From Sulfurimonas sp. HSL3-1 (lineage in GTDB: Bacteria > Campylobacterota > Campylobacteria > Campylobacterales > Sulfurimonadaceae): DNA of 64,000 nucleotides. Under the pieces are notes generated by a model. The model did not search any database. It was not told the origin of the DNA and saw only the letters and a program-made list of their open reading frames with translations. The stretch lies in the NCBI RefSeq assembly GCF_039645995.1, contig NZ_CP147920.1, positions 1,240,001-1,304,000 on the forward strand, given 5' to 3'. The position numbers were made by a program, and so were the translations under genes. Below are positions 41,088-54,275 of this stretch, piece after piece; position 1 is the first letter of the stretch; every line of letters starts with the position of its first letter.

Positions 41088-42044
41088 TCATTTAGTAACA
41101 CGGTTAATATTGCGTAAGTGTGTAGAATAGTAACGCGTAAAGCGGTGCTTTCCGTCGGCGCCTTTCGTAAAATAGAGGTATTCCGTTTTGGCCGGAAAGA
41201 TCGCCGCACGGATCGCGTCGAAGCCGACGTTGCAGACCGGCGCGGCCGGCAGACCAACATGCAGATAGGTGTTGTAGCCGCTCTTGTCCGATCGGATGCG
41301 CGCGGCGGTGATCTTTTCGTGGGAGTACGGACCGTAGTTGAGCGTCCCGTCCATCTGCAGCTTCATCCCCTTGGCGAGACGGTTGGCGATGACGGAGGAG
41401 ACCAGCGGCATCTCCGCATTGTCCGCCGCCTCTTTCTGGATCACCGAGGCGATGATTATATAGTGGTACCATTTGCGTTCGTTGTAGAGGCCGAAGATCT
41501 TCTCCGACCAGGCCCGCTGTTTCGCCTCGGCATAACGCAGCAGCATCTGCACCGCGTCGGATTCAGTAATGCCGATGGGAAGCTGATAGGTATCGGGAAC
41601 GAACGCCCCCTCCTCATAGGGGCTCTGTTCCCGGAACACTTCCATCAGCCGCGCCGGGTCAAGCCCGTGGCTCTCGGCGAGCTGCGTGAAGAAGACCTGG
41701 GTCGTCTCCCCGGGGACCAGGGTGACCGGTTTCATCGCCGCTTTGGAGGTCGTAATTCGGTAGAGGAAATCACCGTGGGTCATGGCCGTGCTTCCCAGGT
41801 CAATCCAGCCGTGCTGCGGCCGGCCGACGAAACGCAGCAAAAAGGCGTCCAGGCGGTTAAGCTGAGGGTTGGCGTGCTCAAGGTGTGTTATAATCTTGCG
41901 AATTGATCCCTGGGGAATATAAAGCACCTTCGATGTCGTGAGCCCCATATTCAGGTAATAGATGAACGACAACGCCATCAACAGAGCGATTGCACATACC
42001 CATTTTATGATCGTCGCGGTCATTGTTCTCTGTCTGGCCCTCAT
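41088..42044 (-). CDS. mltG: MltG-like endolytic murein transglycosylase
   Basis: The 318-residue protein has one N-terminal membrane helix (about 13-33), a LysM-like segment (SKVLYIPQGSIRKIITHLE) and the YceG/MltG catalytic domain with the key Glu in IASVIQKEA. The downstream NRLAKGMKLQMDGTLNYG segment is also present. It cuts nascent glycan strands and limits their length. ATG 42044 is preceded by GAGGA five bases upstream; ATG 42023 is an alternative. Its 5' end overlaps the divergent AsmA-like gene by 38-83 bases. Confidence 0.88.
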   Translation of the reverse strand: MRARQRTMTATIIKWVCAIALLMALSFIYYLNMGLTTSKVLYIPQGSIRKIITHLEHANPQLNRLDAFLLRFVGRPQHGWIDLGSTAMTHGDFLYRITTSKAAMKPVTLVPGETTQVFFTQLAESHGLDPARLMEVFREQSPYEEGAFVPDTYQLPIGITESDAVQMLLRYAEAKQRAWSEKIFGLYNERKWYHYIIIASVIQKEAADNAEMPLVSSVIANRLAKGMKLQMDGTLNYGPYSHEKITAARIRSDKSGYNTYLHVGLPAAPVCNVGFDAIRAAIFPAKTEYLYFTKGADGKHRFTRYYSTHLRNINRVTK

Positions 42045-45000
42045 CACTGTCCTCTACCTTACCCTCTCAAGCGGTGTCCATCTGGGCAAGCTCAAACTCG
42101 GCCGCCTTTATGCGGAGAAATTATACCTGAAGTGGGACGATGCACTTCAAGTCGAGATCGACACGATCGCCCTCGCCCCATCCGACGCGCCCCAGGAACC
42201 CACCGACCTCCTTAGCCTCCAACAGCGCGTCTCCGCGGCGCTGCAGCACCTGGACGACCGCTGGATCGGCAGCCTCCGCATCGACCGCATCCGGCTCGGA
42301 AACGATCTTAACGCATCGCTCTTCTTCGACCCGCGCCGCCGCAGCAGTCTGCACGTCGCCTCCCGCGCCCAGGGGCACATCTCCATGACCCTTCTGCCGG
42401 TGCATAACGCGGACGCCTACAAACTGGAACTGTACGGCGACAGCAGCACGTTTGGCGGCACCTTCCGTTTCGAAGGCGTTCTGCAGCCCAAACTGAGCGA
42501 ACTCTACCTGGGCGGCAGTATCGATGTCGCCGAGGATATCCACCTGCGCCTGGGCGTGCACGCCACCCGCGACGCCGTCACGCTGAACACCTTCTCGACC
42601 GAACCCTTTGCGAGTGTCGCGCCGATCGTGAAACCCCTGCACCTCTCGGACAAGGTCGAGCCGTGGATCGTCGCACGGGCCCAGGGGGGACCGGTGATGC
42701 TGCACACCCTGCAGACGACCCTCCCCTTCGCCGCACCGGCGAAAGCCTTCGACAATCTTTTCGGCCAGCTCACCTTCCATAACGCCCGCTACCATTTTGC
42801 CAATGATCCCGGGGCGTTTGAGCCGGCCCTGGCGGAGGAGGTTACCGTCCTTTTTGAGCATAAGGTCCTGAGGATCTTGCCGCACAATGCCACTTTTTAC
42901 GGGGAACCTGGCGGCGACACCCATCTTGCCATCGATTTCAGCGGCAAAGAACCGCTGCTGAAACTTTCCATCCTGACCTCCGCACGCTTTACGCCGCCGC
43001 TGCAGCGTCTGACCGCTTCATACGGTGTCGACCTCCCCTTTACCCAGACCCGCGGCCTGACCGACACCAACCTGAGTCTGACCGTCAACCTTGCCCATAC
43101 GCAGACAACCGCCAAAGGCTCCTTCAAAACGGCAAAAAGCCGTATCGACCTCTCCGGACTCCCCATCGACGTCTCCCGTGCCGCCGTCGATCTAAAAGAT
43201 TCGGATGTGACCCTGCGCTCCGTGGAAGCTTTGCTCTTTGATGGCAACGTCACGGGTAGCGTCACCGGTGCATTCAACCCGGCCAAACATCGCGGGACAA
43301 TCCGTTTCAATCTCGGCAACGTGCGCTACCCCGTCGGTAGTGCGCCCATCACCCTCTCTCCGGTGTCCGTCCCGCTGCATTTCGAATACCGCCTGGACCG
43401 GGGCGGCGACACCATACGATTTGACGCTTCCCAGTGGCACTATATGGAGCACAACCTCACGTGTGATGCCTTTACGGCCCCCTTTGACCTCAAAAAAGTG
43501 CGTTTGAACGTCCCCAAAACCGTTCTCGCGCTCGACCAGACGGCGCGGGCCACCGTGGAGGGCGAAATCACCCTTGCCCACCCCGCCGCCAGCCTGCTGC
43601 TGGACCTGACGTCACTGCATGCCGGCACCTTCGCCACCGGCCAGACGCACACCCTCTTCAATATTCGGGCCGACGAAAACCTCTCTGTCGTCAGCAACGC
43701 CACCACACACTGGTCCATGGACAAGACACCCCTCTCCGTCTCACCCTTTACCGTTTCGAAGCATAACGGCATTTTCCGCCTCTCCCCCGCCGTCGTTTCG
43801 ATCGAACACCAGCTGACCGGCTCCGTCGAAGGCGTCTTTGAACCGGCGACGATGGCCACCGAGCTCAATGTCACCAACTTCCGCCTCGAGGACGAGGGGC
43901 TCGGCAGGCTGTTCCAGAATATGGATCGGTTCAGCGTCTATATCGTCCCCATCGACGACGAATACGATATCGTCATCCCTTCGATCAATATGGTCTACTC
44001 CACGCTGGGCAGGGGATGGCGGCTGCACTTCTTCTCCCTGGACGCCCTGACGAAACACTCCCCGCTGCTGCGCGATTACAACCTTACCGAGAGCACCATC
44101 TCCGTCTGGTCGGAAAACGGGAACTATCCCGTCGCCTTTAACGGGATCGTCGATTATCCCTACGCATTGACCGCCGTCAACGGCACACCGGTCAACACCT
44201 ACCGTTTTCAGGGGAGTATCGAACAAAACGGCACCTTGGAGTGTTCGATCAACGACCGCATCAAAGTCCACAGCGGCGACACGATCCGCATCAGGACGAA
44301 CGGGGTTGACTTCAGCCAGCCCGAACTGACCCGCTTCTACCGCGATCACCATTTCGATGCGGACAGCAATGCGAGCGAATCGAACACGTCGGTCTCCATC
44401 GATGCGAACGATACCGCCATTCTTTTCCCGGGCAAGCGTCAGGCCAAAGCCGACCGCATTACCATAGACTACAGTCCCAACCGCATTCTCGGGCAGCTCT
44501 ATAAAGGGGGCGGCGGCGCCAAGCTCGATGTCAAAGGAGAGACCTTCTACCTCTTCGGCTACCGACTCGATGACGACTTTATGAACCATTTCTTCAACCT
44601 CTCAAAAGTCAAGGGCGGGACGCTGGACTTTTACATGATCGGAGAAAAAGACGATTTTAAAGGGCTGGCAAAGATCAACGATACGACCGTCTACGATTAT
44701 GTGCTCTTCAACAATCTGTTCGCGTTTATCAATACCGTCCCCGCCCTGGTCACCTTCTCGCTGCCCTCCTATGAGACCAAAGGGATCAAAGTGCAATCCG
44801 CCTATACCGAACTCGCTTATCACAAGGGGGTGCTGACGGCATCCAACATCAAAATAGACAGCAAAGAGCTTGATTTCGCCGGCCAGGGGACCATCGACTA
44901 CAACAAAGACCGCATCAAGATGCAGCTTACCGTCAAGACGCGGGCCGCGGAGAACATCCGCAAGATCCCGCTGGTCGGCTATATTCTTGTCGGCGACGAC

Positions 45001-45222
45001 AAATCCGTCCTGACGACACTGAACATCAACGGTCCGCTGAACGATCCCAAGGTGGAGAACACGATCGCCAAAGACATCATCGTCAGCCCCTTCAATATCC
45101 TCAAGCGCACCCTCGACTTCCCCCTGCACTATCTCAAAAAACTGGACAGCGGCGCCGACGACGATGCCGATAAAGGAAAAGAGCCCCAGGAAGTCACCTC
45201 CGGCGTCCCTCCCGTTAATTGA
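41962..45222 (+). CDS. AsmA/YhdP-like very large envelope protein
   Basis: The 1086-residue protein has one N-terminal membrane helix (about 16-36) and a long, repetitive beta-rich periplasmic part. Its C-terminal region (about 840-1040, with GYRLDDDFMNHFFNLSKVKG and IKIDSKELDFAGQGTIDYN) resembles the AsmA-like C-terminal domain of YhdP/TamB proteins. These are thought to form hydrophobic grooves that carry phospholipids to the outer membrane. The acidic tail is unstructured. ATG 41962 has only a weak AGG site; ATG 42007 is also possible. It is divergent from and overlaps mltG. Confidence 0.78.
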   Translation: MNDNAINRAIAHTHFMIVAVIVLCLALITVLYLTLSSGVHLGKLKLGRLYAEKLYLKWDDALQVEIDTIALAPSDAPQEPTDLLSLQQRVSAALQHLDDRWIGSLRIDRIRLGNDLNASLFFDPRRRSSLHVASRAQGHISMTLLPVHNADAYKLELYGDSSTFGGTFRFEGVLQPKLSELYLGGSIDVAEDIHLRLGVHATRDAVTLNTFSTEPFASVAPIVKPLHLSDKVEPWIVARAQGGPVMLHTLQTTLPFAAPAKAFDNLFGQLTFHNARYHFANDPGAFEPALAEEVTVLFEHKVLRILPHNATFYGEPGGDTHLAIDFSGKEPLLKLSILTSARFTPPLQRLTASYGVDLPFTQTRGLTDTNLSLTVNLAHTQTTAKGSFKTAKSRIDLSGLPIDVSRAAVDLKDSDVTLRSVEALLFDGNVTGSVTGAFNPAKHRGTIRFNLGNVRYPVGSAPITLSPVSVPLHFEYRLDRGGDTIRFDASQWHYMEHNLTCDAFTAPFDLKKVRLNVPKTVLALDQTARATVEGEITLAHPAASLLLDLTSLHAGTFATGQTHTLFNIRADENLSVVSNATTHWSMDKTPLSVSPFTVSKHNGIFRLSPAVVSIEHQLTGSVEGVFEPATMATELNVTNFRLEDEGLGRLFQNMDRFSVYIVPIDDEYDIVIPSINMVYSTLGRGWRLHFFSLDALTKHSPLLRDYNLTESTISVWSENGNYPVAFNGIVDYPYALTAVNGTPVNTYRFQGSIEQNGTLECSINDRIKVHSGDTIRIRTNGVDFSQPELTRFYRDHHFDADSNASESNTSVSIDANDTAILFPGKRQAKADRITIDYSPNRILGQLYKGGGGAKLDVKGETFYLFGYRLDDDFMNHFFNLSKVKGGTLDFYMIGEKDDFKGLAKINDTTVYDYVLFNNLFAFINTVPALVTFSLPSYETKGIKVQSAYTELAYHKGVLTASNIKIDSKELDFAGQGTIDYNKDRIKMQLTVKTRAAENIRKIPLVGYILVGDDKSVLTTLNINGPLNDPKVENTIAKDIIVSPFNILKRTLDFPLHYLKKLDSGADDDADKGKEPQEVTSGVPPVN

Positions 45223-45280
45223 TACTCACTCTCAAAAAGTTACCATACGTGACAAAAATGTCCTTTCTCCTTCATTTTTG

Positions 45281-45329
45281 ATAATGATTGTCATATCTAT
45301 TGACTTTTTTGGGCACATTCCCTATACTT
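45281..45329 (+). promoter_or_regulatory. Porin promoter with Fur-box-like site
   Basis: A textbook promoter, TTGACT (45301-45306), 17 bases, TATACT (45324-45329), lies about 65 bases before the porin start. Directly upstream, GATAATGATTGTCATATCT (45281-45299) matches 13 of 19 positions of the classical Fur box. This suggests control by iron. The remaining leader to the start codon is AT-rich. Confidence 0.6.
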
Positions 45330-45394
45330 CACCCATAATTTTGGGAATGATTCTTGAAATCGTAAAAACAGAAAACACAACAAAAGGATAGGTG

Positions 45395-46639
45395 ATGAAG
45401 CACATTGCACTTTCACTGGGAGCCGCCCTACTGGCCGGTACGACACTCTGCGCGGACGAACTGAGCGATCTGAAAGCCCAGATCGCCGAACTGCAGGAAA
45501 AAACGGATGCCCTGATCGACGAAACGTCGGACCTGAAAACGGGATTCAACTATACGACGGTCGATGCAAACGCCTCTGTCAACGGTATGGGCCCTGCAGC
45601 CTCAAAGGTCTACTACTCCAAGTCCCCGCTCTCCATCGGCGGCTACGGTGAAATGTACTGGTCTTCTCCGGACAGCGACGGCGCTGCCGGGGATGCCTAT
45701 ACGGACGTCTACCGTTTCGTGCCCTATATCGGGTACAAATTCAGCGATAACATCGTCCTCAATACCGAACTGGAATTCGAACACGGCGGCGAAGAGGTTG
45801 CCATTGAATTCATGTACATCGATTTCCTGCTGCATGAGGCCTTCAACCTCCAAGTCGGTAATCTCCTGGTCCCGATGGGACTGATCAACAAGCGCCACGA
45901 GCCGACGCTCTTCAACACGGTGCAGCGCCCGGACGTCGAAAAATACCTGATCCCTTCGACCTGGCACGAGACCGGGATTCTCGCCTACGGCAGTTTCAGC
46001 GACATCGGTCTTAGCTACACGGCCGGGATCATCAATGCCCTGGCGCTCAACAACGACAACAACATGCCCGGTTCCGTCAACAAGAAATGGATCCGCAGCG
46101 GCCGTATCGGCTCGGAAGAGAACGGCCCGATGCAGCGCGTCGGCTTCGTCGGACGCCTCGACTACCGCGGCATCAGCGGCCTGCTCCTGGGGACCTCCGC
46201 CTATTACGGCGCCGCGACACAGGGGCGCCCGAGCGGTGTCAACGCCTTTATGTACGACTTCTACGGCCAGTACGAAAAAGCGGGCTTCAAGCTCAAAGGG
46301 CTCTATACGGCCATGACCGTCTCCGATGCCGAGAAGATCTTCGCCGAAGCGGCGGACGGAGCGGAGGGGTACTACGTCAACGCGGAGTATGACCTGCTGG
46401 CGACACTGCCGACACGCTACCGCCTGCCGATCTTCGCACAGTATGAGAGCTATGATCCCGTCTCCTCCGTCGCCGGCGGTACCCGCCCGGACCTCGAGCA
46501 GACCAACACGACCGTGGGCATGAACTTCTTCCCCCACGAACAGGTCGTCCTGAAGGCGGACTACGTCATGACCGACTTCCACGACAGCGCGCTTGAAGAC
46601 TACAACGTCTTCAGCCTCGGGATGGGCTTCGTCTTCTAA
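45395..46639 (+). CDS. Outer-membrane porin with coiled-coil N-terminus
   Basis: The 414-residue protein has a signal peptide (to about residue 20), a short coiled coil (ELSDLKAQIAELQEKTDAL), and a beta-barrel body ending in Phe (LGMGFVF), as outer-membrane barrels do. It resembles phosphate-selective/OprP-type porins found in Campylobacterota. ATG 45395 is chosen; GTG 45392 is also in frame, and AAGGATAGG lies upstream. A Fur-like site suggests iron-dependent expression. The next gene, an FMN-binding protein, has its own -10 box, so the porin may be a single-gene unit. Confidence 0.85.
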   Translation: MKHIALSLGAALLAGTTLCADELSDLKAQIAELQEKTDALIDETSDLKTGFNYTTVDANASVNGMGPAASKVYYSKSPLSIGGYGEMYWSSPDSDGAAGDAYTDVYRFVPYIGYKFSDNIVLNTELEFEHGGEEVAIEFMYIDFLLHEAFNLQVGNLLVPMGLINKRHEPTLFNTVQRPDVEKYLIPSTWHETGILAYGSFSDIGLSYTAGIINALALNNDNNMPGSVNKKWIRSGRIGSEENGPMQRVGFVGRLDYRGISGLLLGTSAYYGAATQGRPSGVNAFMYDFYGQYEKAGFKLKGLYTAMTVSDAEKIFAEAADGAEGYYVNAEYDLLATLPTRYRLPIFAQYESYDPVSSVAGGTRPDLEQTNTTVGMNFFPHEQVVLKADYVMTDFHDSALEDYNVFSLGMGFVF

Positions 46640-46699
46640 GGCGCCTCCCGCGCGCGCCCGGCGGGCGTTCCTTCTCCTTCCCGCTCCGCCGCCGTGTGT

Positions 46700-46746
46700 T
46701 ATAATTTTTATACAAAACCGATCCTCAAGTCCCCGCAGCGGCGGGG
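46700..46746 (+). promoter_or_regulatory. -10 box and GC hairpin ahead of the FMN-binding gene
   Basis: TATAAT at 46700-46705 is a good -10 element with no clear -35. Thirty bases on, CCCCGC/GCGGGG (46731-46736 and 46741-46746, loop AGCG) forms a strong hairpin in the likely leader. It could terminate porin read-through partly, or shape the leader of the downstream genes. The gap is 136 bases. Confidence 0.5.
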
Positions 46747-46775
46747 ATTTGATAATCCGTTTTGAAGAGAGATCC

Positions 46776-47303
46776 ATGCTGAAAAAGTTGATAGTGACCC
46801 TGATTTTACTGAGTGTCGGCGCGGCAGCCGCCCCGCTGATCTCGCCGATTGATGCGATGCAGCACGCCTTCGGGGCGCAGAGCGAAGTGACGAAGAAAAA
46901 CACGCTGCTCAGCAGCAAGCAGGCCGCTGCCGTCACCAAACGCGCCAAACTCAAGCTCGAGACGAAAATCTACCGCTTCTATACCGCCGTCCTTGACGGC
47001 AAGACCGTCGGATACGGTGTCCTGGTGACGCGCCAGGTCCGCCAGAAAGATGCCACGGTACTCTACATGATCACGCCGGAGGGCACGATCCGGGCCATCG
47101 AGATCATCGCCTTCAACGAACCGCCGGAGTATATGCCGCAGCACCCCTACCTCGAACAGTTCCGGGGCAAGGACGCCAACGCGACCCTGCGTGTCGGCAA
47201 AGACATCCCCACCGTCAGCGGGGCGACGCTCAGCGCGCGCAACGTCACCGACGGCGCCCGCCTCGCCCTGGCGCTCTTCGAAACCGTGATCAGGAAACGC
47301 TGA
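46776..47303 (+). CDS. Periplasmic FMN-binding domain protein
   Basis: The 175-residue protein has a signal peptide (to about residue 18) and an FMN-binding domain of the NqrC/RnfG kind. The late motif TVSGATLSA matches the S/TGAT flavin-attachment signature at which ApbE couples FMN to Ser or Thr. ATG 46776 begins right before the signal. The stop shares one base with the next gene (TGATG), followed by a second membrane gene, and an ApbE gene lies convergent about 1.4 kb away. It is probably a periplasmic electron carrier; the donor and acceptor are unknown. Confidence 0.82.
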   Translation: MLKKLIVTLILLSVGAAAAPLISPIDAMQHAFGAQSEVTKKNTLLSSKQAAAVTKRAKLKLETKIYRFYTAVLDGKTVGYGVLVTRQVRQKDATVLYMITPEGTIRAIEIIAFNEPPEYMPQHPYLEQFRGKDANATLRVGKDIPTVSGATLSARNVTDGARLALALFETVIRKR

Positions 47304-47785
47304 TGCGCTTCACTCTCGTCAAAGACCTGCGCAGCGACGCGCTGATGCGTCCGCTGCTCAACGGACTGCTCCTGTTCGCAGGCACCTTTCTCGTCGCAGA
47401 CGCCTTTCTCAAACGCGACCATATCGGACTCGACCGCGACACCCTCTCTGCGACCCTTTATGGTAACGAAGCGGAGTTCATCGACCCCGTCAGCGAGCAC
47501 TTCGTGCTTGAACTCCTGCACAGCGACATCTTCTTTATGATGATGACCCTGCTGATCCTCTCTGCCGTCTACGCGCGCCTCTGCCCGTTCAAACGCATCG
47601 CAGCGGTCGTGATCAATATCGCCATGATCGCCGCCGCCGCCGACATCGTCCTCTTTGCCCTCGCCTATTACAAAGGCGAAGCCTATCTCCTGCCCTGGCT
47701 GGGCGCCTTCTGGCTCTGGCACGGCACAGCGCTTTTCATGGCCTCCGCCTCGCTGCTCTACCTGAACGTCCTCAAGAAGCCCTGA
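47303..47785 (+). CDS. Four-helix membrane protein, paralogue 1
   Basis: The 160-residue protein has about four hydrophobic helices and an external loop after the first. Histidines are placed at helix ends (HFVLELLHSDIFF and FWLWHGTALFM), which could hold haem or metal. It shares topology and short segments with the next gene and looks like its tandem paralogue. It is coupled to the FMN-binding gene (TGATG), and its stop shares one base with the next start. I do not recognise a family. A membrane partner of the flavoprotein is the simplest guess. Confidence 0.6.
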   Translation: MRFTLVKDLRSDALMRPLLNGLLLFAGTFLVADAFLKRDHIGLDRDTLSATLYGNEAEFIDPVSEHFVLELLHSDIFFMMMTLLILSAVYARLCPFKRIAAVVINIAMIAAAADIVLFALAYYKGEAYLLPWLGAFWLWHGTALFMASASLLYLNVLKKP

Positions 47786-48252
47786 TGCAGCGCGCCTACC
47801 GTTTCGCCGTCGTCTATTTCGCCCTCTTCGGGCTGCTGCTGCTCGCATCGGCCGCCGCCCTCTTTGCGAGCAAAATCGGCTTCTCCTTCCAGGGCATCGA
47901 GCTCTACTATCTCGGCAGTGACACGCTCCCGGGCAAAAGTGCTTACGGGCTGCTGGAGACCGCCGTGCCTCATCTGGGCGCCATGGGGCTTTTTATCATG
48001 GTGGGGGCGCACTTCCTGCTTTTCGCGACCGCTACCGCCAAACGGCGTACGATCCGGCTCGCGCTCGCGCTCTTTGCCGCAGCGCTCCTCGACATCGTCA
48101 GCGGCTACTTTATCGCCTCCGGAGCCACCCTCTGGGTCTGGGTCAAACTGGCGTCATACCTGCTGCTGAGCCTGCTGGGGACGCTGCTCATGCTTCAGTT
48201 GATCTACTACGCTTTTTGGCATAACTTGTCGCGGCAACGACATCCCCGATGA
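47785..48252 (+). CDS. Four-helix membrane protein, paralogue 2
   Basis: The 155-residue protein has about four helices, with histidines in VPHLGAMGLFIMVGAHFLL on the second and third segments. It aligns by eye with the preceding protein: first helix, 30-residue loop, His-bearing helix pair, then the arginine-rich turn (AKRRTIR) corresponding to CPFKR. Start and stop are fused to its neighbours by overlap. Its 3' end overlaps the convergent PH-domain gene by 65 bases. Function is unknown. Confidence 0.6.
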   Translation: MQRAYRFAVVYFALFGLLLLASAAALFASKIGFSFQGIELYYLGSDTLPGKSAYGLLETAVPHLGAMGLFIMVGAHFLLFATATAKRRTIRLALALFAAALLDIVSGYFIASGATLWVWVKLASYLLLSLLGTLLMLQLIYYAFWHNLSRQRHPR

Positions 48253-48688
48253 TGGCACGGTGATACGCGAAGGGGGCCTTGATATGGCTGATGACATAGC
48301 GCCCCCCGGAGGTCGTCAGGACCTCGAGCGTTCCGACATCAATATGGTTTTTGAACCGTTCGCTGTAGGGCTTGATATAGATCGTCCGGATCTCCTCGAG
48401 GTTGATCGGGATGATCTCCCGGTTTTTGAACCCCTTGTGGATGATGAGGCGTTCGGGCGTCAGCACGCAGTGGTAATACTTCTTCTCCCGGATCTCCTGC
48501 AGATGCATATAGAAGGTGCGGATGATGAGCACCAGGCCGATCACCCCGATCTCGTACTCGTAACCGATAAACAGCAGCAGGGCGCCCAGTCCGTAGAGGG
48601 AGAGGATGCCGTTGTAGAACGTCTTTGATATCTCGGCGGCAACGAGGATCGTCTCCTCCGGGTGCAGCATCTTTTCAATCATCTTCAT
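48188..48688 (-). CDS. Membrane protein with bacterial PH-like domain
   Basis: The 166-residue protein has two hydrophobic helices near the N-terminus (about 25-55), then a bacterial PH-type domain (about 65-155: YYHCVLTPERLIIHKGF, REIIPINLEEIRTIYI, 'VLTTSGGRYVISHIK'). These domains resemble DUF304 proteins of unknown function. ATG 48688 follows a strong GGGAGGGG site. It overlaps the apbE stop by 14 bases and the convergent membrane gene by 65, so it is probably transcribed with apbE. Confidence 0.72.
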   Translation of the reverse strand: MKMIEKMLHPEETILVAAEISKTFYNGILSLYGLGALLLFIGYEYEIGVIGLVLIIRTFYMHLQEIREKKYYHCVLTPERLIIHKGFKNREIIPINLEEIRTIYIKPYSERFKNHIDVGTLEVLTTSGGRYVISHIKAPFAYHRAIIGDVVAATSYAKKRSRSTEA

Positions 48689-49610
48689 GGTTCCCCTCCC
48701 ATACTTCAAGGTAGCGCGGAAGGTTCGCGCTTTTGACGATGCTGCCGTCGCTGTAGATGAGCACATAGCCCACCGGCAGGGTCCGCAAAAACGCGACGGC
48801 CTTTGGGGGCGGCATCACGGCCGCCGCCGTCGTCCAGGCATCGAGATCGCCGCTGCGTACCGTACCGACGAGGGTGATCGAGGCAAACGCGCGCTCCGAT
48901 GCCCGCGTTTTCGGATCGATCAGGTGGTTATGGGTTTTGTCCCCGACAAACCGCCGGTAGTCGCCGCTCGTACTCATCCCCGTTTCCGGAGACAGGCTCA
49001 TGAAGGTCATGAGGGTCCCTTCCGAAAAGGGGTCCTGGATCGCCAAGAGGCAGCGGCCGAGGCAGCGGATATCCCCGCTGAGCGCCACGGTGCCCTCCGC
49101 AACCCCGCAGTGACGGAGCGCGGCGGCGGCCGCGTCGATGCCCACCCCTTTGCCGAAGCCGCCGAAATCGAGCATCGCGCCGGGGGCGAGCCGCGCGGCT
49201 GTCGCATTGAACTCCAGCAGGTTCAGGCCGATCGGGAGGCCGGCGATTTCCGCCCTGTCCGGCACGCGTTCCGCTTCGCCGAAGCGGTAGGCCCCGCGGC
49301 TGAGGGCACCAATGGTGATGTCGAAGTAGCCGTCGCTCTGCACGTAGTAGCGCACCGCACTCTGCAGGGCGTCATAGAGCGTCGGCGAGATCGGCAGCGC
49401 CCCCGCATGATTGAGGCGGTAGACCTCCGCGGCGGGGTCGTACGACGAAAGCGCCTTCTCGACCGAGGTCATGGCGGCGAAGGCAGCATCGATGCAGCCC
49501 GCGGCGGTGTCCGGGACCGACACGGTGGCGAAGGTCCCCATCATCACACGGGTTCGTTCCGTCGCCTGCAGCGACGCGAGCAGACACAGCAGGGAGAGCA
49601 GAAACTTCAT
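48675..49610 (-). CDS. apbE: ApbE-type FAD:protein FMN transferase
   Basis: The 311-residue exported enzyme has a signal peptide (to about residue 18) and the ApbE signatures: LDFGGFGKGVGIDAAAAAL, 'MSTSGDYRRFVGDKTHNHLI' followed by DPKT, and SGDLDAWTTAAAVM with the Mg-binding Asp. It moves FMN from FAD onto a Ser or Thr of target flavoproteins in the periplasm. The FMN-binding protein nearby carries the matching motif. ATG 49610 lies just after the phosphatase stop, so the two are linked. A TTG at 49619 is less likely. Confidence 0.92.
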   Translation of the reverse strand: MKFLLSLLCLLASLQATERTRVMMGTFATVSVPDTAAGCIDAAFAAMTSVEKALSSYDPAAEVYRLNHAGALPISPTLYDALQSAVRYYVQSDGYFDITIGALSRGAYRFGEAERVPDRAEIAGLPIGLNLLEFNATAARLAPGAMLDFGGFGKGVGIDAAAAALRHCGVAEGTVALSGDIRCLGRCLLAIQDPFSEGTLMTFMSLSPETGMSTSGDYRRFVGDKTHNHLIDPKTRASERAFASITLVGTVRSGDLDAWTTAAAVMPPPKAVAFLRTLPVGYVLIYSDGSIVKSANLPRYLEVWEGNHEDD

Positions 49611-50238: not shown

Positions 50239-50364
50239 AGTTTCCTTCCCCGCAGGCAGTTTCGCGCTATTATAGCAAAGCGCCATGAGATGCGGCATAT
50301 TGTGATTATCCTGTGACAATTTGCAGTGAAATATTTAAACATTTTTGGTACAATCCTGACATTC

Positions 50365-51183
50365 ATGAAGAGACTCATTCTGACAATCGCATTCGGGTTT
50401 ACGCTGCTTCATGCCCAGTCGGGAGACGTGCGCGTACCCTCTGAAACGGAAAAGGTCGGTCCGCTCGCCCACCTCTCCGGTCCCGAAGACGAGATTTTTG
50501 ACGACAGCGGCTTCGACGATGCCAGTTTCGAGGAGGAGTTTTCGGACGTCGCCACCGAACCGGCCTATGACCCTTTTGAAGGGTATAACCGCTGGATGAC
50601 CGGTTTTAACAATACCCTCTTCGATTACATCCTCAACCCCGTGTTCAGTGCCTACGACTTCATCCTGCCCGAACCGATCCGGGTCTCGATCAACAATATT
50701 TTCAACAATCTGTACTACCCCGTCAGCCTTGTCAACAACCTGCTCCAGCTCAAATTCGACCACGCACTGACCGAGACGGGGCGCTTTATCATCAACTCTA
50801 CTTTCGGGTTCGGCGGGATGTTCGATACCGCCATGCAAATAGGGGTGGAACCCCATGTGGAGGATTTCGGGCAGACCCTGGGACACTACGGCGTCGGGAA
50901 CGGTTTTCCGATCGTCCTGCCCTTTTTCGGCCCCAGCAACCTGCGCGACATCACGGGGGATCTGATCGATTTCTATGTCAACCCAATCTATTATGTTGAC
51001 CCAAGAAAGTATAATATTCCCCGCGATACGTATGAAGGGTGGGGACTGGTCGGCTATAAGCGTTTCAACAAGTTCTCCCTCTATCGTAAGGAGTACCTGC
51101 AGATCCGCGAGGAGGCCCTGGACTTCTACCCATTTATGCGCGATGCCTACGAGCAAAACCGCAACAAACTGATATCGGAGTAA
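50365..51183 (+). CDS. mlaA: MlaA-like outer-membrane lipid transport protein
   Basis: The 272-residue protein has the MlaA/VacJ core: AYDPFEGYNRWMTGFNNTLF, PEPIRVSINNIFNNLYYPVS and GGMFDTAMQIGVEPHVEDFG. MlaA removes phospholipids from the outer leaflet of the outer membrane. Its signal peptide ends LLHAQS with no Cys, so unlike E. coli MlaA it is probably not a lipoprotein. A -10-like TACAAT (50349-50354) lies close to the start. It begins the mlaA-mlaC-RND operon. Confidence 0.9.
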   Translation: MKRLILTIAFGFTLLHAQSGDVRVPSETEKVGPLAHLSGPEDEIFDDSGFDDASFEEEFSDVATEPAYDPFEGYNRWMTGFNNTLFDYILNPVFSAYDFILPEPIRVSINNIFNNLYYPVSLVNNLLQLKFDHALTETGRFIINSTFGFGGMFDTAMQIGVEPHVEDFGQTLGHYGVGNGFPIVLPFFGPSNLRDITGDLIDFYVNPIYYVDPRKYNIPRDTYEGWGLVGYKRFNKFSLYRKEYLQIREEALDFYPFMRDAYEQNRNKLISE

Positions 51184-51187
51184 TGTC

Positions 51188-51772
51188 ATGAAAAAACTGT
51201 TCTATCTTGCCCTGCTTTCCCTGCTGCTGCCCCTCTCGGCCGCGGCGCTTGAAGCGAACGAGATCGGCAGCGTGATGCGCCAGAAGGTCGATACGGTCCT
51301 GGAGATCCTGAACGATCACAACAAAAGCAAAACGGACCGCAACGCGGCCATCGAGCAGGAGATGAACCCCTACTTCGATTTTGTGCTGATGGCGAAACTC
51401 AGCCTCGGCAAAAGCGGCTGGCAGGAGGCGACCCCCGCGCAGCGCAAAGAGTATGTCGTGCTGTTCGAGCGCCGGATCAAGGACTTCTATATGAGCAAAC
51501 TCGACCTCTACAAGGACGAAGCGATCACCCTTGAAGCGCCGCAGCAGGTCAAGAACCGTATCTATCTCAACAGCTTCATCATCGAAAAAGGCGAGAAGAA
51601 AGAGGTACTCTACAAGTTCTACCATGCCAAAGAGGGGTGGCTGATCTACGACGTCGACGTACTGGGCGTGAGCATCATCCAGTCCTACCGCAGCCAGTTC
51701 GCCGGCGAGCTTGAAAAGGGCTCGATAGAGCAGCTTCTCATCAAACTGCGTCAACCACAGCCTGATGCTTAA
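51188..51772 (+). CDS. mlaC: MlaC-like periplasmic phospholipid-binding protein
   Basis: The 194-residue protein has a signal peptide and an MlaC/Tgt2 domain (LSLGKSGWQEATPAQRKEYV, 'FYHAKEGWLIYDVDVLGVS'). MlaC shuttles phospholipids between MlaA in the outer membrane and an inner-membrane partner. It starts four bases after mlaA and overlaps the RND gene by eight. The usual MlaFEDB ABC transporter is not encoded here. Confidence 0.92.
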   Translation: MKKLFYLALLSLLLPLSAAALEANEIGSVMRQKVDTVLEILNDHNKSKTDRNAAIEQEMNPYFDFVLMAKLSLGKSGWQEATPAQRKEYVVLFERRIKDFYMSKLDLYKDEAITLEAPQQVKNRIYLNSFIIEKGEKKEVLYKFYHAKEGWLIYDVDVLGVSIIQSYRSQFAGELEKGSIEQLLIKLRQPQPDA

Positions 51773-54275
51773 ACGCTTCTATACCGGCTTCGTTTTCCGC
51801 TACCCCCGCACGGTCATCGCCCTGGTGCTGCTTGCAGCGGCGCTGTTGGGCACCCAGGCGGTAAAGCTCAGCGTCGACGCCTCCGCCGAGACCCTGCTGC
51901 TTGAAAACGACAAGGACCTCGCCTACACCCGCCTCGTCGCCAAACGCTACCGCGGCCAGGACTTCCTCGTCGTCACCTACACCCCCGACGCCGACCTCCT
52001 CGCCCCGCAGACCCTCGACAATATCCGGACCCTCAGCGCGGCGCTGCTGAAGATCGACGGGATCGACTCTGTCAACTCCATTCTCAACGTCCCGCTCCTG
52101 GAGAGTCCTCCGAAACCCGTCAAGGAGCTGCTGGAGAAGATCCCTTCCATCGAGGCGGGCGACGCGAACCTGACCCTGGCGCGCGAAGAGTTCAAACACA
52201 ATCCCCTCTACGTCTCCAACCTCGTCAGCCCCGACCTCAAAACGACGGCCCTGCAGGTCAACCTCGTCCGCGACGACCACTACTACGAGCTGCTTGACCG
52301 CCTCAACGCCCTGCGCGCGGCCGACGACAACGGCACGCTCACCGCAGAGGGCAGGACCGAGCTTGCCGACGCGACGGCCGTCTTCAAGGCGTACCGCGAC
52401 GTTGCCCGCGAACGCGACCACCGCATGATCCTCGCCGTACGCGATACGCTGCGCACCCATCAGGCGGCGGGACAGCTCTTCCTCGGCGGCGTGACGATGA
52501 TCGCCGACGATATGGTCACCTTCGTCAAACGCGACCTCAAAACCTACGGCGTGGCCGTCCTGGCCCTGCTGATCCTCGTGCTTTGGACGGTCTTCCGCCA
52601 GAAGCGTTGGGTCGCCCTGCCGGTGCTGATCTCCGCCCTTTCCATCGGCATTACGGTCGGGCTGCTGGGGATGCTTGGTTTCGAGATCACCGTCATCTCG
52701 TCCAATTTCATCTCTTTGCAGCTGATCATCACGATCTCCATCATCATCCACCTGATCGTGCGCTACCGCGAACTCGCCCTGACCAACCCCGAAGCCGATG
52801 AACGCAGCCTGGTACTGGAGAGCACCCTCTCCATGTCCAAACCGACCTTCTTCGCCATTATCACGACGATCGCAGGCTTTGCGTCGCTGATGCTCTCGGG
52901 GATCAAGCCGGTCATCGCCCTGGGCTGGATGATGAGTATCGGCATCAGCGTCTCCCTGATCGTCGCTTACCTCCTCTTTCCTGCCGTCAACGTGCTGCTC
53001 AAGCGCAAGCAGCCGAAAACGACCTTCGACAAAGAGTTCTCCGTTACCAAGATCCTGGCGACCTTCACCGAACGTCACGGCGCGCTGACGCTTATGGCCA
53101 CCGTCTTGCTGATCGCCTTTTCCGTCACCGGGGCGCAGCGCCTCGTCGTCGAGAACAGTTTTATCAACTATTTCAAGCCCACGACGGAGATCTTCCAGGG
53201 AATGTCCGTCATCGACCGCCAGCTCGGCGGCACGACGCCGCTGGACATCACGATAGACCTTCCCCAGCCCCCCGCCGCACAAACCCCGTCCGAACCTGCC
53301 GCCGACAGTTCGGACGGCTTTGACGAGTTCGACGAATTCGCCGAGGAGTTCAATGCCGAGGCAAAGGGGGCCCAGTACTGGTTTACGGAGAACCGGATGG
53401 AGGTCGTGCGCCGTGTCCACGAGTGGCTGGAGAGCGTCCCCCATGTCGGAAAGGTGCTCTCGCTCGGAACGATGCTCGAAGTGGGGCGTACCCTCAACCA
53501 CGGCCGCGAACTCGACAACTTCGAGCTTGCGCTGCTCTACAACGAGATGCCCGCGAAATTCGCCAATATCATTCTCAAACCCTACGTCAGCATCGAGCAC
53601 GACCAGGCGCGTTTTGCCCTGCGCATTATCGACTCCGATCCCGATCTGCGACGTGCCGACCTCCTCAAAGAGCTGCATGACGGCCTGATTGACAAGGTGG
53701 GTATCCCCCCGGAGCATCTGCACATCTCCGGTCTGATGGTGCTGTACAACAACATGCTCCAGAGCCTCTTCGAGTCGCAGATCGCCACCCTGGGCGTCAT
53801 GGCCGTTCTGCTCTTCTTGATGTTCTGGGCCCTCTTCCGATCCTTCCTCACGGCCGTCGTCGCCATTATCGCGAACCTCGTTCCCGTCGGGACGGTCTTC
53901 GGGGTCATGGGGTGGTCTAATATCCCGCTGGACATGATGACCATCACCATCGCCGCCATCAGTATCGGGATCGCGGTCGACGACACCATCCACTATATCC
54001 ACCGTTTCCGGATCGAACTTGCGCGCGACGGCGACTATGTCGCGGCGATGCACCGCTCCCACGAGAGTATCGGTTACGCGATGAGCTACACCTCTGCGGC
54101 CATCATGATCGGTTTTGTCATCCTCGTGCTTTCGGTCTTTATCCCGACCATCTACTTCGGCCTTCTGACCGTACTCGTCATGTTTATGGCGATCGTCGCG
54201 GACCTTCTGCTGCTACCGAAACTCATCTTGCTGCTGCGTCCTTTCGGACAGGTGACGAAAAAAGTTGTCAATTAA
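51765..54275 (+). CDS. RND-superfamily (MMPL-type) lipid transporter
   Basis: The 836-residue protein has 12 predicted helices in two six-helix sets, each with an external domain after its first helix, as in MMPL and HpnN proteins. Sterol-sensing-like segments are seen (VLISALSIGITVGLLGMLGF, ISIGIAVDDTIHYIHRFRIE). The middle domain is acidic (SSDGFDEFDEFAEEF). It overlaps mlaC by eight bases, which implies it exchanges lipids with MlaC in place of the MlaFEDB pump. As I recall, C. jejuni has the same trio. Confidence 0.87.
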   Translation: MLKRFYTGFVFRYPRTVIALVLLAAALLGTQAVKLSVDASAETLLLENDKDLAYTRLVAKRYRGQDFLVVTYTPDADLLAPQTLDNIRTLSAALLKIDGIDSVNSILNVPLLESPPKPVKELLEKIPSIEAGDANLTLAREEFKHNPLYVSNLVSPDLKTTALQVNLVRDDHYYELLDRLNALRAADDNGTLTAEGRTELADATAVFKAYRDVARERDHRMILAVRDTLRTHQAAGQLFLGGVTMIADDMVTFVKRDLKTYGVAVLALLILVLWTVFRQKRWVALPVLISALSIGITVGLLGMLGFEITVISSNFISLQLIITISIIIHLIVRYRELALTNPEADERSLVLESTLSMSKPTFFAIITTIAGFASLMLSGIKPVIALGWMMSIGISVSLIVAYLLFPAVNVLLKRKQPKTTFDKEFSVTKILATFTERHGALTLMATVLLIAFSVTGAQRLVVENSFINYFKPTTEIFQGMSVIDRQLGGTTPLDITIDLPQPPAAQTPSEPAADSSDGFDEFDEFAEEFNAEAKGAQYWFTENRMEVVRRVHEWLESVPHVGKVLSLGTMLEVGRTLNHGRELDNFELALLYNEMPAKFANIILKPYVSIEHDQARFALRIIDSDPDLRRADLLKELHDGLIDKVGIPPEHLHISGLMVLYNNMLQSLFESQIATLGVMAVLLFLMFWALFRSFLTAVVAIIANLVPVGTVFGVMGWSNIPLDMMTITIAAISIGIAVDDTIHYIHRFRIELARDGDYVAAMHRSHESIGYAMSYTSAAIMIGFVILVLSVFIPTIYFGLLTVLVMFMAIVADLLLLPKLILLLRPFGQVTKKVVN

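Follow-up and report, generated by a model that had tools for sequence, protein, structure and literature searches.

A conserved five-gene block of Campylobacterota as a candidate Fur-controlled periplasmic ferric reductase with a putative two-subunit membrane cytochrome

The window analysed here (the whole stretch of DNA, 64 kb in length) comes from a 2.5-Mb genome of Campylobacterota, whose relatives include Sulfuricurvum and Sulfurimonas. It contains four consecutive plus-strand genes, which code for an outer-membrane porin, an exported FMN-binding protein and two membrane proteins, called M1 and M2 below, and a convergent gene for ApbE (Table 1). A preliminary description of this DNA had listed this gene set, with ApbE convergent 1.4 kb away, and had placed a Fur-like box and a TTGACT-17-TATACT promoter upstream of the porin; the genes and the distance, taken from the end of the FMN gene to that of ApbE, agree with the coordinates, and both upstream elements can be read directly in the sequence. 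The -35 element TTGACT (45300-45305) is separated by 17 nt from TATACT (45323-45328), the Fur-type box ends one base before the -35 element, and the porin ATG follows at 45395. The junctions between the FMN gene and M1 and between M1 and M2 are one-base overlaps of the TGATG type, so that each membrane-protein gene begins within the preceding stop, indicative of coupling.

Table 1. Features of the block and its upstream region, in window positions
Feature	Position	Strand	Evidence
Fur-type box GATAATGATTGTCATATCT	45280..45298	+	13/19 matches to the E. coli consensus on the forward strand, 14/19 on the reverse strand
Sigma-70-like promoter, TTGACT-17-TATACT	45300..45328	+	Direct sequence reading
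Outer-membrane porin, Porin_O_P-like	45395..46639	+	PF07396, E=3e-5
Exported FMN-binding-domain protein	46776..47303	+	PF04205, E=3e-7, over cut-off
Thr151 codon (SGAT in TVSGATLSA), predicted FMN attachment residue	47226..47228	+	Invariant
M1, 4-helix membrane protein	47303..47785	+	His73 and His140 conserved; AF2 pLDDT 92.5
M2, 4-helix membrane protein, M1 paralogue	47785..48252	+	His63-x12-His76 on helix 2; AF2 pLDDT 92.6
ApbE, FAD:protein FMN transferase, exported	48678..49610	-	PF02424, E=1e-54

Several other genes adjoin the block. A large YhdP/AsmA-like protein of 1086 aa (41962-45222) is encoded directly 5' of the porin promoter, divergently from an MltG-like gene, and is found next to the block in close relatives only. 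A small membrane protein with weak similarity to bacterial-PH domains (48188-48694) is encoded between M2 and ApbE and overlaps the ends of both. We considered it as a further member of the module, as we did a HAD gene and the Mla genes, and rejected all of them, as their conservation next to the block is largely confined to the closest relatives. One apparent operon (50326-54275) contains MlaA, MlaC and a gene for an MMPL/RND-type exporter in a lipid-transport arrangement; the usual Mla permease genes are absent from its direct surroundings.

The porin has a signal peptide and a coiled-coil N-terminus, and no close paralogue of it was found in its own genome. The FMN-binding protein consists of a signal peptide and a single domain. 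Its profile matches the RnfG structures 9eri (at 1e-8) and 7zc6, with the SGAT threonine in register, and this threonine is invariant in 58/58 and 115/115 orthologues. The protein scores 20.8 against TIGR01947, whose cut-off is 102, and neither the block nor its neighbours in the window include NqrB/RnfD, NqrD/E, RnfC or other subunits of this kind. ApbE is similar to ApbE proteins of solved structure (phmmer E~1e-16). The link between the two that had been proposed earlier is supported, in that each is the only member of its family in this genome and in that M1 and ApbE co-occur across the phylum (see below). The FMN protein is predicted to be flavinylated at Thr151 by ApbE.

We searched 101 genomes of the same family for the FMN protein, found it in 62 of them, and then compared larger regions. 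Family regions and named genome contigs, with duplicates removed, gave 82 non-redundant loci of Campylobacterota whose flanking sequence was sufficient; gene presence was counted by HMM and phmmer searches of every ORF. The contigs came from a scan with one FMN-protein peptide pattern, which returned Campylobacterota plus a few MAGs labelled only 'bacterium'. M1 and M2 are each present in 78 of the 82 loci, the porin in 72, ApbE in 71, and all five genes in 64. The porin orthologue lies upstream of the FMN gene in 72/82 loci; ApbE is at most 4.5 kb from the FMN gene in 71/82, convergent and downstream in 54, and in 16 it lies ahead of the porin on the other strand. Gene neighbours around the block vary between genomes while the block itself stays.

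Outside the family the same arrangement recurs. M1 is encoded in 22 of 298 genomes of the phylum, across five families, and ten loci from four other families have porin-FMN-M1-M2 with a convergent ApbE, except that ApbE is missing locally from L128, which has two ApbE genes elsewhere in its genome, and that the porin of L127 is on the other strand. ApbE is found in all 22 M1-bearing genomes and in 8 of the 276 that lack M1 (Fisher 5e-27, with phylogeny ignored). A conserved neighbourhood in related genomes, which had been suggested as a check, was therefore found both within the family and in four families beyond it. A literature search found no description of this five-gene block.

The Fur-type box, taken singly, is weak evidence, because the window holds three sites of 14/19 on either strand where a first-order random model expects 0.9. 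It is, however, more than a chance match, because it is conserved in relatives: among 85 porins, 92% are preceded by a box of at least 14/19, as against 5% of 848 starts of other genes from these loci. The best match to the Fur consensus in the whole locus falls no more than about 300 nt from the porin start in 39/43 loci, as compared to a mean of 7.4 loci for shuffled palindromes of the same composition (n=200), several of whose top scorers resemble slipped or near-Fur boxes. Boxes collected across the loci read AATAATGATAATNATTATC, a Fur-type inverted repeat. As the loci are related, the p-value of this enrichment should be read with reserve; the effect is large in size and reaches the other families too. 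The consensus is that of E. coli, and the motif is without confirmation on an independent known target in this genome: eight TonB-receptor genes and feoB have no box of at least 14 by this consensus. Two Fur-family proteins are encoded, and either could own the box. The conserved box upstream of the porin supports iron control, as proposed in the preliminary description, and the block is apparently switched on by iron shortage.

Iron-linked genes are found beside the block in some relatives. In two genomes of the Sulfuricurvum group (L085 and L186), FeoA-FeoB follows M2 in the same orientation after a gap of about 130 bp, and in L074 FeoAB stands opposite a divergent FMN_bind and ApbE pair that is accompanied by an outer-membrane protein. 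Operons of the imelysin-DHOR-imelysin type, which are under Fur regulation and have been implicated in the uptake of iron (PMC3143127), lie next to the FMN gene or the module in L052, L060, L066 and L184, and occupy the usual position of the porin in the last three. A fatty-acid-hydroxylase-like gene accompanies this operon in L060 and L066, and in L066 the FMN gene has no M1, M2, porin or ApbE nearby. In seven loci (L039, L040, L041, L043, L044, L051 and L172) the porin and FMN genes are separated by a gene for a di-haem CCP_MauG-type peroxidase; of these, L172 has neither M1/M2 nor ApbE nearby. Most loci have no adjoining iron transporter, and feoB of the genome studied here is encoded away from the block. 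The feoAB and imelysin/DHOR neighbours favour iron acquisition over another external acceptor as the probable role of the block.

M1 and M2 are paralogues of each other (hhalign E=1.3e-13 over 150 columns), and the profile of M1 also picks up M2 in seven genomes. In the AlphaFold models, which are confident, each has four long helices, the first two of them connected by a segment made up of a helix and a strand; the charge distribution suggests that both ends are cytoplasmic and that this segment is periplasmic. Two histidines in each protein, all on predicted membrane helices, are essentially invariant: His73 (108/108) and His140 (105/108) in M1, and His63 and His76 (each 105/105) in M2. Further conserved residues (105-108 loci) are Arg92, Phe77, Gly42 and Gly54 in M1 and Pro62, Phe80 and Lys121 in M2, and neither protein has a Cys, Met or acidic residue conserved at the 90% level. 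The 13-residue spacing of the two M2 histidines on one helix is close to that in two-haem b cytochromes. As no Cys, Met or acidic residue is conserved at this level, the simplest reading is that M1 and M2 share two bis-histidine haem sites, and the four histidines form the pattern that would be expected of a two-haem b cytochrome assembled from two subunits.

Searches of Pfam, NCBIfam and PDB with single M1 and M2 proteins and with their alignments gave no family match. In particular, the PepSY models PF03929/PF16357 matched none of 48 M1 or 50 M2 members, and there was no match to PF14358 (DUF4405) among the members or to PF01794 in either protein. DUF4405, short DUF4405-like and FdnI-like cytochromes found in genomes of the phylum were tried as possible relatives and discarded for want of profile similarity (hhalign probability below 3% for DUF4405). 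Fold searches with the models retrieved only four-helix bundles of a generic kind and MAPEG and FAT domains, none with a significant E-value, and were uninformative. Since there is neither profile similarity to these cytochromes nor a specific fold match, it is the histidine pattern that points to haem. Membrane partners of flavinylated proteins listed in parts of two flavinylation surveys are NQR/RNF, NapH-like, MsrQ-like, PepSY, DsbD and DUF4405 proteins (PMC8238504, PMC11334425), and the Pfam models of all of these failed to match M1 or M2. We regard it as an even call whether M1 and M2, as paralogous membrane cytochromes of half size, make up a new family that works as a two-haem heterodimer, represents a donor class for flavinylated proteins outside those just listed, and is given over to iron reduction under Fur control in Campylobacterota. 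The paralogy, the lack of a known family and the four histidines are sequence-derived points that go beyond the preliminary description. Eight loci (L050, L058, L143, L163, L164, L171, L181 and L183; five of the six named ones are Sulfurimonas) have, after M2 and in the same orientation, a gene for a multihaem cytochrome c (c554/c7-like, ~367 aa), which may be an additional electron partner.

The suggestion that these genes form one electron-transfer system gains support from the conserved gene block, the co-occurrence of M1 and ApbE, and the conserved Fur-type box. We think it rather probable that the block is a Fur-repressed assimilatory periplasmic ferric reductase, which feeds FeoB and employs an undescribed transmembrane electron conduit. 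In the course of events that we infer, Fur would leave the box at 45280 upon iron shortage, allowing transcription of porin-FMN-M1-M2; the porin would admit small ferric complexes to the periplasm, and ApbE would attach FMN to Thr151 of the exported protein. M1 and M2 would form a heterodimer in the inner membrane, with two b haems held between the four conserved histidines, and would draw electrons from menaquinol or some other donor in the membrane and hand them to the covalently bound FMN, which would reduce Fe(III) to Fe(II) for import by FeoB.

The main rivals to a ferric reductase assign M1/M2 to metal transport or the electrons to an acceptor other than iron. M1/M2 could be a histidine-lined divalent-metal permease for Fe(II) made by the flavoprotein, which would itself be reduced by another periplasmic or membrane donor. 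The conserved membrane histidines could indeed ligate metal, the Fur-type box upstream of the porin would keep its link to iron, and FMN proteins that lack an electron donor in the membrane are known beside P19/FTR1 (PMC8238504). Nevertheless, we hold this to be improbable: typical metal permeases are unlike M1/M2 in the matter of conserved Cys, Met, Asp or Glu, and the pair His63-x12-His76 on one helix of M2 fits stacked haems; in L085/L186 a permease is already present, as FeoAB is encoded right behind M2, and the flavoprotein would be left without an electron source.

About as improbable, in our estimate, is a respiratory or redox-balancing chain whose acceptor, in the periplasm or outside the cell, is not iron (e.g. 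peroxide, an organic compound or a mineral), and which would be an iron-sparing stand-in for c-type cytochromes under low iron. Interchange of flavinylation and cytochromes is documented (PMC8238504), and the peroxidase genes that separate the porin from the FMN gene in seven loci would suit such a chain. It would not spare iron if M1/M2 carry haem, though, the block has no conserved terminal reductase, and the recurrent neighbours of known role include iron-uptake genes. We give very little credence to a flavin-dependent maturation or repair of outer-membrane or periplasmic proteins, by reduction of thiols or methionine sulfoxide, with iron control secondary; MsrQ-type systems do repair proteins in the periplasm with FMN and haem (PMC8238504), but neither MsrP nor a Dsb-like gene is a widespread neighbour of the block, and PF01794 is unmatched in M1/M2.

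The block is of broader interest. The surveys place extracytosolic ApbE in about half of bacteria and describe many flavinylation clusters without an assigned membrane electron donor (PMC8238504, PMC11334425); M1/M2 are a candidate donor of an undescribed family. For free-living Campylobacterota such as Sulfurimonas and Sulfuricurvum, the block is also a candidate means of acquiring iron, and it is small and open to genetic tests.

One of the closest parallels is with FoxB and VciB, PepSY-type assimilatory ferric reductases, which are likewise Fur- or iron-linked and are inner-membrane haem proteins that reduce periplasmic iron for uptake, as M1/M2 and the FMN protein are proposed to do here; PepSY clusters often hold FMN_bind and apbE (PMC8238504, PMC11334425). 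FoxB and VciB, however, are single-chain PepSY domains that go with a TonB receptor, whereas the block has two short paralogous 4-helix subunits, without a PepSY Pfam match, and a porin instead. DUF4405 proteins and the ferrosome cytochrome FezC are flavinylation-associated b cytochromes, and the haem sites of FezC are predicted to arise by homodimerisation, which resembles the proposed joining of M1 and M2 and is a precedent rather than a demonstrated relative (PMC11334425); M1/M2 have no detectable profile similarity to DUF4405 and differ in loop and helix pattern. In P19-FTR1 systems with an FMN_bind protein, iron uptake is likewise linked to an extracytosolic FMN protein (PMC8238504), but the block lacks P19 and FTR1 and has a dedicated membrane pair instead. 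With RnfG and NqrC the FMN protein of the block shares the FMN_bind domain and its SGAT threonine, but none of the other Rnf or Nqr subunits is present. The FLEET system of Listeria (PplA, FmnB, EetA/EetB) is made of a flavinylated carrier, an ApbE-type transferase and two dedicated membrane proteins. The block resembles FLEET in this set of components; FLEET differs in being a Gram-positive, extracellular and respiratory system.
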